From positions 1-64,000 of the forward strand of contig NZ_CAXQBR010000019.1 in NCBI RefSeq assembly GCF_964222135.1: a stretch of 64,000 bases of DNA, given 5' to 3'. Within the stretch, counting starts at the first letter, position 1, and every line of letters begins with the position of its first letter. The notes under the pieces are model-generated. The model searched no databases. It was not told where the DNA came from and saw nothing but the letters and a program-made list of their open reading frames with translations. Below, in pieces: positions 57,209-64,000 of the stretch. The translations under genes were made by a program, and so were the position numbers. Source of the DNA: Euzebya sp. Lineage in GTDB: Bacteria; Actinomycetota; Nitriliruptoria; Euzebyales; Euzebyaceae.

Positions 57209-59008
57209 GTGAGCCAGACCGCCGTCACCGCCCCGTTCGCCGCCACCGTCGCCCACGTCGTCGCACCGCCGGGGACCGCGGTCGCCGAGGGCGACGTGCT
57301 GGTGTACCTCGAGATCATGAAGATGGAGCAGCCGGTCACCGCACCGGTGGGAGGGGTCGTGGCTGCCGTCGACGTCGTGGTCGGCGACGGGGTCGCAGCG
57401 GGGCAGCGGCTGGCGCTGATCGGCCCGGCCGAGGCGCCGGCCGCCGACCGTCCAGCGGCCCCGGCCGGCGATGGCGCGACCGGGGTCCGCACCGATCTCG
57501 CCGAGGTGCGCCGACGTCGCGGGTTGCTGGCGGACGACGCCCGGCCCGAGGCGGTGGCCAGTCGGCACGACCGGGGCATGCGGACGGCTCGGGAGAACGT
57601 CGCCGACCTGCTCGACGAGGGCAGCTTCAGCGAGTACGGCGGCCTGGGCATCGCCGCCCAGCGCGGTCGCCGCGGCCTCGATGAGCTGCTCGCCCGCACA
57701 CCGGCCGACGGGTTGATCACCGGGACCGGCACGGTCAACGCCGACCTGGTCGGCCCGGCACGCGCCCGCGTCGCGGTGGCCGCGTACGACTACACCGTCC
57801 TGGCGGGCACGCAGGGCCTGACGAACCACCACAAGAAGGACCGCCTCTTCCGGCTGGCCCACACCCACCGGCTGCCCGTGGTCGTGTTCGCCGAGGGGGG
57901 CGGGGGGCGTCCGGGCGACACCGACGGCGCAGGCGCGTCGTGGCTCGACGCCGAGGCCTTCGAGCTGTTCGCCCGCCTCTCCGGCCGCGTGCCGACGGTG
58001 GCGATCGTCAACGGCCGGTGCTTCGCCGGCAACGCCGCGCTGGCCGGCAGCGCCGACGTGATCATCGCCACGGAGGGGTCGACGCTCGGGATGGCCGGGC
58101 CGGCGATGATCGAGGGCGGTGGCCTCGGCGTCGTGGACCCCGACGACATCGGGCCGATGGACGTCCAGGTCGCCAACGGCGTGGTCGACGTGCTGGTCCG
58201 CGACGAGGCGGCGGCCGTCGCGGCGGCCCAGCAGTACCTGTCCTACACCCAGGGGCCCGTCGCGGCACCGGAGCCGCACGACCAGACCGCGCTCCGCGAC
58301 GCGGTGCCGGAGAACCGCAAGCGGACCTACGACGTGCGGCGCATCGTCGAGGTGCTGGCCGACCCGGGCTCGGTGCTCGAGCTCCGGCCCGGCTTCGCCC
58401 CGGGGGTGGTGACGGCGTTCGCGCGCATCGGCGGCCAGCCGGTCGGCGTCGTCGCCAACGACCCGCGCCACCTGGGCGGCGCGATCGACGCAGACGGCGC
58501 GGACGCGGTCAGCCGGCACCTCGAGCTGTGCGACGCCTACGGGCTGGCCGTCGTGGTGCTGTGCGACACGCCCGGGTTCATGGTCGGCCCCGAGGCCGAG
58601 CGCGACGGCGGGGTGCGGCGCTTCTCCCGCATGTTCGTGGCGGGCGCGCGGCTCGGCGTGCCGATCATCGCGGTCGTCACGCGGAAGGCCTACGGGCTGG
58701 GCGCCCAGGCCATGCTCGGCGGGCACCTGAAGGTCCCCGCGCTGACGGTGGGCTGGCCGACCGCCGAGCTCGGGCCGATGGGGCTCGAGGGCGCGGTCCG
58801 CCTGGGCTTCCGCCGCGAGCTCGAGTCCATCGAGGACCCCGACGAGCGGGCCGCCCGGGAGCAGGCGCTGATCGACGCCGCCCACGCCGGCGCCCGGGGG
58901 CTCAACGTCGCCACGTACGCCGAGATCGACGACGTGATCGACCCCGCCGACACCCGCGAGCGGATCCTGCAGACCCTCGCCGCCGTCACCCCACCGACCA
59001 CCGCCTGA
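57209..59008 (+). CDS. acyl-CoA carboxylase carboxyltransferase fused to an N-terminal biotinyl domain
   Basis: 599 residues. Residues 1-75 form a biotinyl/lipoyl domain with the modified lysine K38 in LEIMKMEQPV (usually AMKM), followed by VGDGVAAGQRLALIG. After an Ala/Pro linker, residues 100-599 are a full carboxyltransferase like AccD/PccB, with ENVADLLDEGSFSEYGGLGI, an oxyanion GRCFAGNAALAGSADVIIA and GFMVGPEAERDGGVRRFSRM. No biotin carboxylase gene is next to it. The substrate (acetyl-, propionyl- or another acyl-CoA) is unknown. The ribosome site before the GTG is weak. It is divergent from the AfsR-like gene. Confidence 0.87.
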   Translation: MSQTAVTAPFAATVAHVVAPPGTAVAEGDVLVYLEIMKMEQPVTAPVGGVVAAVDVVVGDGVAAGQRLALIGPAEAPAADRPAAPAGDGATGVRTDLAEVRRRRGLLADDARPEAVASRHDRGMRTARENVADLLDEGSFSEYGGLGIAAQRGRRGLDELLARTPADGLITGTGTVNADLVGPARARVAVAAYDYTVLAGTQGLTNHHKKDRLFRLAHTHRLPVVVFAEGGGGRPGDTDGAGASWLDAEAFELFARLSGRVPTVAIVNGRCFAGNAALAGSADVIIATEGSTLGMAGPAMIEGGGLGVVDPDDIGPMDVQVANGVVDVLVRDEAAAVAAAQQYLSYTQGPVAAPEPHDQTALRDAVPENRKRTYDVRRIVEVLADPGSVLELRPGFAPGVVTAFARIGGQPVGVVANDPRHLGGAIDADGADAVSRHLELCDAYGLAVVVLCDTPGFMVGPEAERDGGVRRFSRMFVAGARLGVPIIAVVTRKAYGLGAQAMLGGHLKVPALTVGWPTAELGPMGLEGAVRLGFRRELESIEDPDERAAREQALIDAAHAGARGLNVATYAEIDDVIDPADTRERILQTLAAVTPPTTA

Positions 59009-59236
59009 CCCGTCACCCCGACCCCCTCCCCCCTCCCCTCCCGCACGGATCGACCACGATCGACCGGGGTGGACAGCTCCGCAGTGGTCGATCTGTGGGA
59101 CGGCGAGCGCACGACCTGCGCAGGTCACCGACCGCTCGGCTGATCACGGCCCGTGGTGGTCGAGCCGTGCGCCCGCGAGGGGTGCAGGCGTGCACGGGGG
59201 AGGGGTGGACGCACCCCTCGGGGCCACCCGACGCCG
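59009..59236. other. intergenic region between two convergent stops
   Basis: 228 bases between the carboxyltransferase stop and the permease stop. It holds a pyrimidine-rich tract just after the first gene and then the inverted repeat listed at 59044-59097. I see no gene. Confidence 0.6.
59044..59097. repeat. inverted repeat CACGGATCGACCAC / GTGGTCGATCTGTG
   Basis: Two 14-bp arms (59044-59057 and 59084-59097), complementary at 13 positions, around a 26-base centre. On the minus strand it begins CCCACAGATCGACCACTGCG, which resembles the arm CCCACAAATCGAC at 13741, and it contains GCGGAGCTG, also present in the repeat at 45377. It lies between convergent genes, so it may act as a terminator. 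Confidence 0.7.
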
Positions 59237-60034
59237 TCAGAGCTCGCGACGACCCGTCCGACGGACCGCCAGCAGCACGAGCAGCGGGGTGGCCACGACC
59301 GTGACGACGACAGCCCGGACGTAGTCGCCGGCGGGCACGCCGGCCACCATCGCGGCGGCCGCCGTCAGCAGCTCGCTGGGCAGCCACGGCCGGACGGCGT
59401 CGACCACGCCGACGATCGGGAACGCGAGCAGCACGCCGATCGTGGTCAGGATCGTGGCGCCCTGCCCGCGGACGGCGCTCGCGACGGCGGCGACGACCGC
59501 CACGGCGAACGCGTGGTAGCCGATGCCGTAGAGCGTCCCGACGACGAGCGCGCCGACGTCGATGGCGCCCAGCAGCACGACCGACAGCGACCAGGCGATG
59601 ACGGTCCCCACCACCAGGGCCAGGGCGGCGACGGCCGTGGTGACCAGGTACGGCGGGACCACCAGCCACCGCGGGTGGTCCACCTTCGTGCGGAGGAACG
59701 CCGACACCTCCGGCCGGGCGTCCACCGCGAGCGCGCCCGCCGCGACGACGGCGACGGCGAGCAGGCCGAGCTGGCTCGCGTTCGACAGGAACTGGACGAT
59801 CCCGTCGGCGGGTTGCGGGTCCGGGGCGGTGATCTGCACCCCACCGCCGAACCGGGCGATGATCTCGTTGATGTAGCGGGCCGTCACCGGCCCGAGGACG
59901 CCGAACAGCGCGTACACGCCGACGACGATCAGCCAGCGGTGCGTCCGGACGGCTCGCGCGACCTCGAGGCGCCACAGCGTCATCGGCCGGCGCGTCGCCG
60001 GCGGGATGGCCGTCGAGCCTGGTGCGGCGCTCAT
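59237..60034 (-). CDS. ABC-2-type transporter permease
   Basis: 265 residues with six predicted helices, among them WLIVVGVYALFGVLGPVTAR, QLGLLAVAVVAAGALAVDAR and VVTVVATPLLVLLAVRR. The motif ARPEVSAFLRTKVDHPRWLV between helices is common in these two-component exporters. The ATG at 60034 overlaps the ATPase stop as ATGA, so the two are translated together and form one exporter. The substrate is unknown. The far longer open frame in this phase is a shadow across the neighbouring genes. Confidence 0.85.
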   Translation of the reverse strand: MSAAPGSTAIPPATRRPMTLWRLEVARAVRTHRWLIVVGVYALFGVLGPVTARYINEIIARFGGGVQITAPDPQPADGIVQFLSNASQLGLLAVAVVAAGALAVDARPEVSAFLRTKVDHPRWLVVPPYLVTTAVAALALVVGTVIAWSLSVVLLGAIDVGALVVGTLYGIGYHAFAVAVVAAVASAVRGQGATILTTIGVLLAFPIVGVVDAVRPWLPSELLTAAAAMVAGVPAGDYVRAVVVTVVATPLLVLLAVRRTGRREL

Positions 60035-61212
60035 GTCCGCACCAGCTCGAGGAAGGCGGTCTCGAGGTCCGTGGCCGGGGTGAAGGCGATCAGGTCCGCC
60101 CCCTCCGCGGCGAGGATCCGCGGGATGTGGCGCTCGGCGGCGACCGCGTCCGACACGACCAGGTGGATCCGCCCCGGCGCCTGCTCGACGGCCTGGTGGA
60201 CCCACCCCTCGGACCGCAGGGCGGCCAGGACGGCGTCGGCCGGCGGTCGGACGTGCAGGGCGTAGGCGGTGCTGGTGCGCGCGAGGAGGTCGGCGATCGG
60301 TCCCTGGAAGCGCAGGGTGCCGCCGTCGATCACCCCGACCACGTCGGCGACCTGCTGCACGTCGGACAGGATGTGGGTGGAGAGGATCACGGTCTTGGTG
60401 CGGGCGAGCCGGCCGATCAGGTCGAGGACCTCGCGGCGCCCGGTCGGGTCGAGGGCCGAGGACGGCTCGTCGAGGAGCAGCACCTCGGGGTCGCCGACGA
60501 TGCAGGCGGCCAGGCCGAGGCGTTGGAGCATCCCGCGGGAGAACCCGCCGACCTCGCGGTCGATCGCCTCGGAGAGGTGCACCTCGGCGATGGCGGCCTC
60601 GACGTGCTCGTGGCCGAGGTGCGGGGCGGTCAGGTGCCGCGACAGGTCGACGACCTCGCGGGCGGTGAGCCACGGCTCGAACAGCGGGGTGTCGACCAGC
60701 ACCCCCATGTCGGTGCGCGGTACGGCCAGGTCGATGGTGCCGGCGCTCGGGCGGCGGAGGCCGGCCAGGATCGACAGCAGCGTCGTCTTCCCCGCCCCGT
60801 TGGGGCCGATCAGCCCGTAGATCACGCCGCGGGGGACGACCAGGTCGACGTCGTCGAGGGCGGCGTGGTCGCCGTAGACCTTCCGCAGCCCCGAGGTGCG
60901 GACCACCGCGTCGCGATCGTCGAGGGCGGTCACCGGCGGCCGGTCGGGCGCGACGAGCGGCGCTGACTGCGTCGGCGGTCCCCATCCGGGCTCCTCCTGG
61001 GGGTGCTCGCCCGGCCGGACCCGACCTGCGACGACGTACAGGATCGCCCCGATCGGGAAGCTCACCAGGACCACGATCAACGCCCACGCCCACTTCGGCA
61101 GCTGCTTGACGTCGTGGCGGGCCAAGTCGATCAGGACCGCGACCTGCGCCAGCAGCGCCACGACGCCGATCACGACGACGACGGTGGGGATCTGCTCCCC
61201 GGCGATCTCCAC
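60031..61212 (-). CDS. ABC transporter ATPase with N-terminal PLDc_N-type membrane domain
   Basis: 393 residues. Residues about 8-70 form two membrane helices (PTVVVVIGVVALLAQVAVLI, WAWALIVVLVSFPIGAILYV) matching the phospholipase-D-nuclease N-terminal domain, often a stand-alone membrane anchor in actinobacteria. Residues 105-390 are an ABC ATPase with Walker A GPNGAGKTT, signature FSRGMLQRLGLA and Walker B VLLLDEPSSALD. The fusion would tether the ATPase to its partner permease. The GTG at 61212 has GGAGG just upstream. Confidence 0.87.
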   Translation of the reverse strand: MEIAGEQIPTVVVVIGVVALLAQVAVLIDLARHDVKQLPKWAWALIVVLVSFPIGAILYVVAGRVRPGEHPQEEPGWGPPTQSAPLVAPDRPPVTALDDRDAVVRTSGLRKVYGDHAALDDVDLVVPRGVIYGLIGPNGAGKTTLLSILAGLRRPSAGTIDLAVPRTDMGVLVDTPLFEPWLTAREVVDLSRHLTAPHLGHEHVEAAIAEVHLSEAIDREVGGFSRGMLQRLGLAACIVGDPEVLLLDEPSSALDPTGRREVLDLIGRLARTKTVILSTHILSDVQQVADVVGVIDGGTLRFQGPIADLLARTSTAYALHVRPPADAVLAALRSEGWVHQAVEQAPGRIHLVVSDAVAAERHIPRILAAEGADLIAFTPATDLETAFLELVRT

Positions 61213-61254
61213 AGCTCCTCCTCGGTGCGGGTGCGCGCCATTGTGCACGCCGTC

Positions 61255-62520
61255 TCAGCCCCGGTCGGCAGCCTCCTCCGCGACGTCGCCGACGGACTCC
61301 GCGGCGGCCCCGTCGACGACGATCGCGGTCAGCAGGTCGGCGACGTCGGGGTGGTTGAGCAGCGCGAAGTGGTCCGCCGAGCCGACGTGGCGGACGCTCG
61401 CGACCCGCGCCCACTCCTGGGCGTGTGCGCTGGCCGAGCCCCACATGACCAGGAGGTCCCCGATCGTGCGGCTCAGCGGGTGGCCCTGCGTGGCGCCGAG
61501 CGTCGCGCCGACGACGTGGTGCCCGGCCTCCGCGAGGCGGTCGACGGCCCTGGCGGGGTCCGAGCGCCAGGCGTCGGCATCCTTCTCCGACCAGTCCTCC
61601 TCGGTGAGGTAGCCGTGGCGCAGGTCCTTGATGCCGGCGCTGCGCCGGCGCAGGATCGCGCCGAACGCCGCGGACTCCGGGATCGCCGACAGCAGCCACG
61701 CGCCGGCGTTCGCGACCTTCTCGAGGGGGGCACCCAGGTGCGGCGCGCCGAGCATGACGACGTGGCGGGTGCGGTCGGGCCAGCGGTGCCCCTCGATGCG
61801 GGCGCACTCCCCGGCGCCGCGGATCACGAGCGCACCCATCGAGTGCCCGATGAGGATCAGCTCGTCGACGCCGACGGGCCAGACGGCCACGAGCCGCTCG
61901 AGCAGCGCCGTCAGGTCCGCCGCGTTGGCCGAGACGTGCCGGCCGGTGTTGTAGCGCAGCAGGACGGGGGTGACGCCGAGGTCGGTGAGGACCTCGGGGT
62001 AGGTGATGCCGCGGGAGGCGGCCTTGAACGACCAGGACTCGTCGTTCTCGACCAGCCCGTGCAGGAGGACCGCGACGCGGGGGCGGGCATCCGGGAAGGC
62101 CTCGCGGAGCGCGTCGGTCTCCACCGCGACGTCCCGGGCGTCGACCCGCACGGTCATGCCCAGGGCGAGGGGGTTGCCCTGGGACTCGAGCAGGTCGCCG
62201 AGCACGCCGTTCAGGATCGCGAGCGCGGTCCGCCAGGCCACGCTCCGCTCGAGCGCGTCGGGGTCGCGGGCTTGGCCCGTCGCACGGGCGAGGGTCCCCG
62301 CCAGGCGCCGCGTGCCCCGCGTCGCCATCGTGAGCGCCCCGTACACCAGGTCGGCGACGCCGTCGTGGACGGCCTTCGGCACGTCCGATCCGGGCACCAG
62401 CCCGAAGGCCCGGTCGGCGACGGCCTCGTGGGTGTCGCGGACGGTCTGGAGGACCACCTCCTCCCACATCTGGGGGGCCAGGTCGCTCAGCCCGATGACG
62501 TGGTCGTCCTGACTACTCAT
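61255..62520 (-). CDS. alpha/beta-hydrolase (esterase/lipase, PGAP1-like)
   Basis: 421 residues. VAVLLHGLVENDESW supplies the oxyanion-hole region and LILIGHSMGALVIRGA the nucleophile serine. VVMLGAPHLGAPLEKVANAG is typical of lipases of the PGAP1/PHB-depolymerase-like group. SVRHVGSADHFALLNHPDVA near the C-terminus provides the histidine. The first 130 residues are helical with no recognised domain. No signal peptide is seen. Its ATG overlaps the transglutaminase stop by ATGA, with GGAGG upstream. The substrate is unknown. Confidence 0.85.
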   Translation of the reverse strand: MSSQDDHVIGLSDLAPQMWEEVVLQTVRDTHEAVADRAFGLVPGSDVPKAVHDGVADLVYGALTMATRGTRRLAGTLARATGQARDPDALERSVAWRTALAILNGVLGDLLESQGNPLALGMTVRVDARDVAVETDALREAFPDARPRVAVLLHGLVENDESWSFKAASRGITYPEVLTDLGVTPVLLRYNTGRHVSANAADLTALLERLVAVWPVGVDELILIGHSMGALVIRGAGECARIEGHRWPDRTRHVVMLGAPHLGAPLEKVANAGAWLLSAIPESAAFGAILRRRSAGIKDLRHGYLTEEDWSEKDADAWRSDPARAVDRLAEAGHHVVGATLGATQGHPLSRTIGDLLVMWGSASAHAQEWARVASVRHVGSADHFALLNHPDVADLLTAIVVDGAAAESVGDVAEEAADRG

Positions 62521-63437
62521 GCGTGCCTCCCGTCGGCGCCCACCCGGCGGACGTCGACGCTGACGGTCAGCGCCTCGGTGTCCCCGTCGGTGAAGATGAC
62601 GCCCTTGAGGGGCGCGACGTCACCGTAGTCGCGTCCCCAGGCGGTGGTGATGTGCCGGTCGCCGACGAACTGGTCGTTGGTCGGGTCGACGTCGACCCAG
62701 CCGGTCTGCGGCACGTACACCGAGACCCAGGCGTGGCTGACGTCCGCGCCCTGCAGCTTGGGTCGTCCGGGCGGCGGGTCGGTCTCCAGGTAGCCGCTGA
62801 CGTAGCGGGCCGCGAGCCCCATCGACCGCAGGGCCGCGATCGTCAGGTGGGCGAAGTCCTGGCACACCCCCGCGCGGCGGGCGAGGACGTCGTCGACCGG
62901 GGTCCCCACCGCCGTGGCGCCGGGGCGGAAGGCGAGCCCGGCGTGGACGCGGTGGGACAGGTCCTCGACGGCGTCGAGGATCGGACGGCCCGGCCGGAAT
63001 GACGGCAGCGCGAACGCGGCCGCCGCGGCGGTCGGCGCCGCCTGGGGGGAGGGGAGGCTCAGCTCGACGGCGGCCAGCAGCTCGGGATCCGGTGGCGCGC
63101 CGTCCCCCTCCCCGGCGGCGACGAGGGCGTCGCGGACGTCCTCCCACGGCTGCGCGGCGAGCAGGTCCGACGTCCCGTCCCGCCCGGTGATCTCGACGGT
63201 GCTGGTGGCGGTCACCTCGAGCGCGGTGTGCGGTGCCCGCAGGGCGAACCAGGTCGTCGCGTTCCCGAACCAGTCGGTGCGGTCGACCTGCTCGTCCGGC
63301 GCGGGATCGATGGTGATCGCGCGCGCGAGCACCCGCTGGTGGGGCAGGTCCCGCGGCAGCAGGTGCGCCTCGCCGTAGCTGGCCGACACCTCCGCCTCGT
63401 AGGCGTAGGCGGTGCGGTGCGTGATCGCGAAGGTCAC
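62517..63437 (-). CDS. transglutaminase-like cysteine protease superfamily protein
   Basis: 306 residues. The N-terminal beta domain (HRTAYAYEAEVSASYGEAHL) is the usual partner of this group, and the catalytic triad is visible: C192 in RRAGVCQDFAHL, H235 in SHAWVSVYVP and D251 in VDVDPTND. Relatives in bacteria occur with alpha-E and circularly permuted ATP-grasp proteins and are thought to act on peptide tags. The GTG at 63437 overlaps the stop of the alpha-E gene as GTGA. Confidence 0.92.
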   Translation of the reverse strand: MTFAITHRTAYAYEAEVSASYGEAHLLPRDLPHQRVLARAITIDPAPDEQVDRTDWFGNATTWFALRAPHTALEVTATSTVEITGRDGTSDLLAAQPWEDVRDALVAAGEGDGAPPDPELLAAVELSLPSPQAAPTAAAAAFALPSFRPGRPILDAVEDLSHRVHAGLAFRPGATAVGTPVDDVLARRAGVCQDFAHLTIAALRSMGLAARYVSGYLETDPPPGRPKLQGADVSHAWVSVYVPQTGWVDVDPTNDQFVGDRHITTAWGRDYGDVAPLKGVIFTDGDTEALTVSVDVRRVGADGRHA

Positions 63438-64000
63438 GGCGTCCCCGCCGGGGTCCACACGGGCTGGTCCGTGGCGATCGCGATGGCGCGCTGGCGCTTC
63501 AGGTGCGTGAAGTGCCGCGCCTCGAGGTCGTCCCCGGCCCGGGTCAGCGACGTGTGCAGGTGGGCCAGGAACTCGTCGAGGTCGCCGCGGACGCCGCCGT
63601 CGACCGCAGCGACCAGCGCCCGGGTGTCGGCCACCCGCAGCGCGGTGGAGGCCTCGAGGACCGCCCGCTCGGTCGCCGACACCCGTCCCGCGGGCGGTCG
63701 GTCCGGCAGCTCGCGGAGGTCACGGCCGAGCAGGTCGAGCTGGTAGGTCAGCGACCGCGGGTTGTCCGGGTCGATGAGCAGCAGGTCGAGCAGCGTGACG
63801 ATCTGGGCGTGGGAGCGGTAGCGGCGGCGGTAGGTGATGATCGATTCGGCGACCCGGAGGACCGACTCGAGCACCAGGCTGTCCGCCGCGGTGTCCCGCA
63901 CGTGCGTCGTGGTCGCCCGCAGCAGGGCGATGACCTGCAGGGACCGCTCGAGGCGCCGGCCGGCGTCCATGAAGTACCAGCCGGCGTCGCGGACCATGTT
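63434..64000 (-). CDS. alpha-E domain protein (DUF403), 5' end outside window
   Basis: At least 188 residues. NMVRDAGWYFMDAGRRLERS is the alpha-E family hallmark, followed by YRRRYRSHAQIVTLLDLLLI and NPRSLTYQLDLLGRDL. An open frame continues past the window edge, so the protein starts further right, either as a normal alpha-E protein of about 310 residues or as the C-terminus of a fused ATP-grasp/alpha-E protein. With the transglutaminase gene it forms a cluster proposed by others to make and process peptide modifications. Function unproven. Confidence 0.88.
   Translation of the reverse strand, partial: NMVRDAGWYFMDAGRRLERSLQVIALLRATTTHVRDTAADSLVLESVLRVAESIITYRRRYRSHAQIVTLLDLLLIDPDNPRSLTYQLDLLGRDLRELPDRPPAGRVSATERAVLEASTALRVADTRALVAAVDGGVRGDLDEFLAHLHTSLTRAGDDLEARHFTHLKRQRAIAIATDQPVWTPAGTP

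Follow-up and report, generated by a model that had tools for sequence, protein, structure and literature searches.

The window analysed here is a stretch of 64,000 nucleotides (C19:1-64000) from the 5.06-Mb draft genome of a Euzebya species. The genes at 62517-64000, at its right-hand end, are the distal end of a known ATP-grasp/alpha-E/transglutaminase/DUF2126 amidoligase cluster. An earlier note had described a series of five genes at this end, encoding an alpha-E protein, a transglutaminase, a hydrolase, an ATP-binding cassette (ABC) ATPase and an ABC permease. All five exist and lie on the minus strand, but what was called the "alpha-E" gene is only the end of a larger one, which encodes a degenerate circularly permuted ATP-grasp/alpha-E fusion of 869 amino acids (C19:63434-66043; Pfam CP_ATPgrasp_2, E-value 7.3e-139; Alpha-E, E-value 9.8e-71). 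It is cut by the window edge, and the part inside the window (63434..64000) covers some of the alpha-E domain only. Taken as a whole, we consider it probable that this end of the cluster includes a fused ATP-grasp that is non-catalytic and stands beside an intact one, and that the hydrolase and the ABC pair are neighbours of the cluster rather than components.

The last gene of the cluster (62517..63437, minus strand) encodes a transglutaminase-like protein with the Pfam domains Bact_transglu_N and Transglut_core. The core domain contains Cys, His and Asp motifs, which we take to be the catalytic triad. Beyond the window edge, on the same strand, are genes for a transglutaminase-DUF2126 protein of 1145 amino acids (C19:66050-69487; DUF2126, 1151.6 bits), a second, stand-alone alpha-E (about C19:69429-70466; Pfam) and a stand-alone circularly permuted ATP-grasp (about C19:70496-71998; profile match). 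Read from 5' to 3', the cluster order is stand-alone ATP-grasp, alpha-E, transglutaminase-DUF2126, ATP-grasp/alpha-E fusion and transglutaminase. The circularly permuted ATP-grasp gene that had been predicted to the right of the window is present twice within 8 kb, once as the fusion gene, with matches of 527.6 and 466.2 bits.

Conservation of the cluster

The core order is conserved in all four genomes of the genus (G000-G003), in each of which the terminal transglutaminase adjoins the cluster. Two sets of loci were compared outside the genus. The first comprises 58 further loci, all with this ATP-grasp, of which 56 were hand-picked (a non-random choice, sometimes two per genome) and two were L021 and L022. 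The second consists of the best 80 of 573 relatives of the fused-protein query and, because the best 80 were taken, leans towards the query. Among these 80 fused loci, a transglutaminase is found in 75, DUF2126 in 52 and a stand-alone ATP-grasp in 33. The complete order is seen in 22 and a 23rd is interrupted by a contig end. According to record titles, the 22 include members of the Pseudomonadota, Planctomycetota, Verrucomicrobiota, Acidobacteriota and Poribacteria and one spirochaete. One cluster is retained in the genus and across several phyla, and the locus adds a further genome to a type of cluster that is already known.

Variants of the layout occur. Mycolicibacterium loci L165-L167 share three genes in the same order (transglutaminase-DUF2126, ATP-grasp/alpha-E fusion, transglutaminase) and the stand-alone ATP-grasp lies elsewhere in those genomes (G349-G351), whereas here it belongs to the same run. 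In four loci of another actinobacterial family (L055-L058, in G060, G149, G179 and G140), both ATP-grasp types and both alpha-E domains stand in one run without DUF2126 between the modules; DUF2126 was detected in L055 and L058 only, outside the run. This layout is either an independent joining of two modules or an older arrangement.

The system was reportedly proposed by Iyer et al. in 2009 to make peptide or amide bonds. That study is cited for the ATP-grasp/alpha-E/transglutaminase system in three later papers (PMC5666114, PMC6376114, PMC3597751), two of which describe an Anbu operon with these genes (PMC5666114, PMC6376114) and one a marine co-occurrence of the system with urea genes (PMC3597751). 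P. putida grown on nitrate versus ammonium induces its ATP-grasp gene PP_2688 (log2 3.99) and its Anbu gene PP_2685, annotated as a bacterial proteasome beta subunit (log2 4.44), according to Table 2 of PMC8050072. Like the present cluster, the Anbu operon brings together genes for a stand-alone ATP-grasp, an alpha-E and a transglutaminase; the present cluster adds the DUF2126 and fused ATP-grasp module. The Anbu operon of Y. bercovieri is without the fused type as it is described in PMC6376114. Our literature search yielded nothing for DUF2126, for Rv2567 together with Rv2411c, or for an inactive, pseudo or degenerate ATP-grasp, although Iyer et al. 2009 may already remark on the fused one.

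The fused and the stand-alone ATP-grasp

The two ATP-grasp types were compared in an alignment of 84 stand-alone and 95 fused sequences, for which only matches of at least 430 aligned columns were used. Types were initially assigned by the better-scoring query (97 fused, 84 stand-alone). Two rows from duplicate genomes (L010, L011) were then dropped, and L093 and L094 were moved to the stand-alone type; both were noticed by their motif and had been assigned independently to that type by the locus comparison. A tree separates the two types exactly, with support 1.0.

In the stand-alone type E179, N181, D342, K344, D451 and G397 are each present in 84/84 sequences, and R94, D343, G400 and S484 are likewise invariant or almost so. 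The fused type retains E179 in 1/95, D343 and S484 in 2/95 each, G400 in 4/95 and G397 in 8/95; R94, N181, D342, K344 and D451 are each found in 0/95. In most fused sequences the glycine loop, too, has been lost or is deleted. Other positions are kept, namely R453 (94/95), K490 (94/95), D491 (95/95) and K391 (70/95). The two proteins of the window's genome follow this pattern: at fourteen sites the stand-alone protein reads E,N,D,D,K,K,G,G,G,D,R,S,G,K and the fused protein G,R,E,N,P,K,G,A,N,L,R,H,A,K. In the latter, ExN has become G-x-R, DDK has become ENP and Asp451 has become Leu, while one of the three loop glycines and Lys391 are kept.

The fold is predicted to survive these changes. An open frame of 760-960 amino acids is present in 79 of the 80 best fused loci, and 53 of these sequences were aligned for modelling of a fused Marinobacterium homologue. 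The model (predicted local distance difference test, pLDDT, 87) keeps the ATP-grasp fold, and its best match is PDB 3n6x (TMt 0.88), a putative glutathionylspermidine synthase of Methylobacillus flagellatus. This 474-residue chain without an alpha-E domain is of the stand-alone type (E-value 3.1e-158) and in the alignment retains the residues that the fused paralogue has lost. Eukaryote-type glutathione synthetases (2hgs, 1m0w) come next among the fold matches, and E. coli GspS (2io7) ranks below them; the Foldseek E-values are 3e-11 to 5e-8 at 12-16% identity. These glutathione synthetases and GspS are known enzymes.

The fused type rarely occurs without the other. A stand-alone copy was found in 78 of the 80 genomes with the fused type, on the same locus in 33 and elsewhere in the genome in 45 of the other 47, as would be expected of a partner subunit. 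The reverse dependence fails: in a sample of the class, 21 of the 30 genomes with the ATP-grasp family PF14403 hold just one match, whose score (528-547 bits) is at the level of the stand-alone type.

The alpha-E domain was examined on the stand-alone protein encoded at L104:3588-4514 (plus strand; Marinobacterium lutimaris), whose model is all-helical (pLDDT 91). Profiles of its first and second half are homologous (hhalign 98.5%, E-value 3.7e-15), and a helical unit around the ER motif seems to have been duplicated within alpha-E. No Foldseek match was obtained for the model at an E-value of 0.001 or below. In VIA-align 2 the NasR antiterminator, a nitrate sensor, ranked first (Z 11.0, root-mean-square deviation 5.2, 235 aligned residues), within the chance range for helical bundles, and no NIT family is among the Pfam matches. 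A link between alpha-E and the nitrogen response is a lead only.

Given the loss of the ExN motif and of much of the ATP site, we infer that the fused ATP-grasp would be a non-catalytic partner subunit. The stand-alone ATP-grasp would use Mg-ATP to activate a carboxylate as an acyl phosphate and would then couple this to an amine. A second bond could be added by DUF2126, a predicted amidoligase, and the transglutaminase-fold proteins might cut or transfer the product. Next to the intact ATP-grasp, and connected with it through alpha-E, the fused one would have a scaffolding or regulatory role. The Y. bercovieri Anbu operon encodes alpha-E in a gene of its own, and we therefore take its ATP-grasp to be of the stand-alone type; for this protein, release of phosphate from ATP is reported in PMC6376114. 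The proposal may be extended beyond this locus: the fused ATP-grasp of the DUF2126 module might be a pseudo-ligase conserved across bacteria. Its metal and ATP site would have been lost early, after which it would have turned into an obligate partner, without catalysis of its own, for the stand-alone ATP-grasp; the two would form a hetero-complex of active and inactive subunits joined by alpha-E. This wider form is a serious possibility that falls a little short of probable.

Several observations weigh against a non-catalytic partner. The replacements in the fused type are themselves conserved, with E in place of D342 in 93/95, P in place of K344 in 76/95 and R in place of N181 in 78/95 sequences; the clade is therefore constrained rather than decaying and may have a different ligand or a different catalytic route. 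The role of ExN as a magnesium ligand is presumed here from human glutathione synthetase and D-Ala ligase, and the literature search gave no support for it. Among the accompanying stand-alone copies, one of the 33 on the same locus (L159) is a fragment of 32 residues located where a contig ends, and of the 45 located elsewhere 2 are partial pieces only and 9 have a stop inside the match; in G311 and G319, both metagenome assemblies, a stand-alone copy was not found. A pull-down with Anbu as bait in Y. bercovieri gave no specific interaction among the operon proteins, as reported in PMC6376114.

Conserved replacements could also mean that the fused protein is an active ligase with a re-modelled site, which uses another metal arrangement or nucleotide, so that two ATP-grasp ligases would act in sequence together with DUF2126. 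The retention of R453, K490 and D491 (94, 94 and 95 of 95) and of the fold fits this idea as well. We nevertheless regard it as rather unlikely, with E179 lost in 94/95 and N181, D342, K344 and D451 in 95/95 fused sequences, with the glycine loop mostly lost or deleted, and with an intact copy nearly always present in addition. The non-catalytic partner is thus the preferred reading of the fused ATP-grasp.

The hydrolase and the ABC pair

Downstream of the cluster, three more genes follow on the minus strand. The first (61255..62520) encodes an alpha/beta hydrolase with a GHSMG motif, whose Pfam alpha/beta-hydrolase matches are weak and all under the curated cut-off. The second (60031..61212) encodes an ABC ATPase that begins with a membrane domain of two helices, PLDc_N (Pfam). 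The third (59237..60034) encodes an ABC permease for which hydropathy predicts six membrane helices; at the thresholds applied, neither Pfam nor NCBIfam gave a match for it. It is assigned as the partner of the ATPase, with which it also pairs in relatives.

The earlier note had stated that ATGA or GTGA overlaps join four of the five genes. Three such overlaps are present: a GTGA at 63434-63437 from the fusion gene to the transglutaminase, whose likely start, GTG 63437, is the same as in the genus relatives; an ATGA at 62517-62520 from the transglutaminase to the hydrolase; and an ATGA at 60031-60034 from the ATPase to the permease. Bacterial genes often overlap by four nucleotides in this way. 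For the ATPase the most likely start is GTG 61212, since similarity to relatives of 68-69% identity begins there (residues 11-12 of the longer reading), and the start is preceded by a ribosome-binding site of its own, AGGAGGAG, about 42 nucleotides past the hydrolase stop. As the hydrolase and the ATPase do not overlap, the overlaps tie three genes and two genes, and the series splits there instead of forming one chain. A search of 59000-64000 gave neither a sigma-70-type promoter nor an intrinsic terminator, a result that is uninformative at this G+C content.

The hydrolase gene follows the cluster in three of the four genus members (about 55% identity), and the fourth species is without it. 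Near the cluster elsewhere, a relative was found in 0/58 further loci and 0/80 best fused loci, and a first profile search of genome contigs with the hydrolase alignment detected no relative. A wider alignment (A2) comprised 14 sequences, with L033 and L039 left out. In a sample of 296 genomes of the phylum the hydrolase occurs in 14, and 14/14 of these hold PF14403, compared with 71/296 overall (Fisher p 7e-10, kinship ignored). In the 12 hydrolase genomes of this sample outside the genus, the hydrolase and the ATP-grasp are in every case on separate contigs or over 400 kb apart. The class sample holds the hydrolase in 24 of 66 genomes, 6 of which show no match to PF14403; these six are draft genomes with a completeness of 53-89%. 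In its best-sampled family, PF14403 is present in 15/21 hydrolase genomes and in 7/14 others (Fisher p 0.29). The lack of an association within this family suggests that the phylum-wide one is probably mostly due to kinship. The hydrolase as a general component of the cluster, suggested by the phylum sample, was set aside once the class sample had removed the association. Its linkage to the cluster within this genus is real but local. The hydrolase is likely a neighbour and not a component of the cluster.

Among the four genus members, the ABC pair adjoins the cluster only in the window's genome. A permease relative beside the cluster was found in 0/3 other genus members, 0/58 further loci and 0/80 best fused loci. 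The dedicated exporter proposed in the earlier note is therefore not upheld; that note had itself named the lack of a conserved linkage as the finding that would speak against it. Weak ATPase matches occur in 3/58 loci (28-35%), all without a permease, and in 2/80 best fused loci (28-31%). The closest ATPase relatives found outside the genus are in G021-G023 (58-68%, tblastn), with permeases of 56-60% beside them. PF14403 was not detected in these three genomes, which belong to another family and are 64%, 96% and 76% complete (G021 and G023 being drafts). Within the genus, G002 carries an ATPase of 49% and a permease of 50% identity, again as a pair, on contig C14, away from its cluster. The ABC pair is very likely a neighbour of the cluster and not a component.

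That the five genes form one unit for the synthesis and export of a peptide tag, in which the ABC pair exports the product and the hydrolase processes it, is highly improbable on these grounds. All genes are tightly packed on one strand, the hydrolase follows the transglutaminase in three of four genus members, and no terminator-like site was found between the genes, which says little at this G+C content. No other cluster examined, however, has a permease relative beside it, the closest ABC pairs sit in genomes without a PF14403 match, and the ATPase has its own ribosome-binding site after a 42-nucleotide gap. Moreover, the three genus relatives have a metallo-beta-lactamase-like gene and no ABC pair in that interval, and the hydrolase/ATP-grasp association is not seen in the best-sampled family. 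A narrower idea leaves out the exporter and holds that in this genus the hydrolase does serve the cluster as an accessory enzyme, which could for example trim the product. The ATGA coupling with the transglutaminase, the same position in three of four species at about 55% identity and the presence of PF14403 in all 14 hydrolase genomes of the phylum sample are compatible with it. We find it doubtful even so: the gene is missing from the fourth species, the class sample contains six (draft) hydrolase genomes without PF14403 and leaves no within-family association, and every genome outside the genus that has both genes keeps them on different contigs or more than 400 kb apart. The preferred reading, in which the hydrolase and the ABC pair are neighbours, is accordingly kept for both.

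Flanking genes and implications

The surroundings of the cluster show further regularities within the genus. Upstream and on the same strand, pst genes are found in all four genomes (L003:16993-19969, which is C19:74993-77969, and L024, L025 and L017), and pstB is 59-89% identical in the other three. A long, putative cell-wall-binding protein is encoded between the pst genes and the cluster in G000, with a 52% match in G003. Phosphate regulation of the cluster was considered but is not relied on, as the pstB query gave at most 35% identity in the 58 and 80 other loci, matches read as other ABC ATPases.

Downstream, the interval that holds the ABC pair in the window's genome is occupied in G001-G003 by the metallo-beta-lactamase-like gene (L017:4346-5155, minus; L010:10729-11544, plus; L011:8337-9143, minus). 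Its product has a twin-arginine-like N-terminus, both labels coming from reading the sequence; the gene was not found in the window or on the contig up to position 84000. A gene for a biotin carrier domain fused to a carboxyl transferase (window 57209-59008, plus strand) is convergent with the ABC permease gene; all four genus members have it downstream of the cluster.

The locus is a caution against taking a neighbouring transporter as the exporter of a cluster's product. For a widespread cluster with no proven product in the literature searched, sorting out the true cluster genes, together with a probable non-enzyme ATP-grasp among them, shows what to assay, mutate and co-express.

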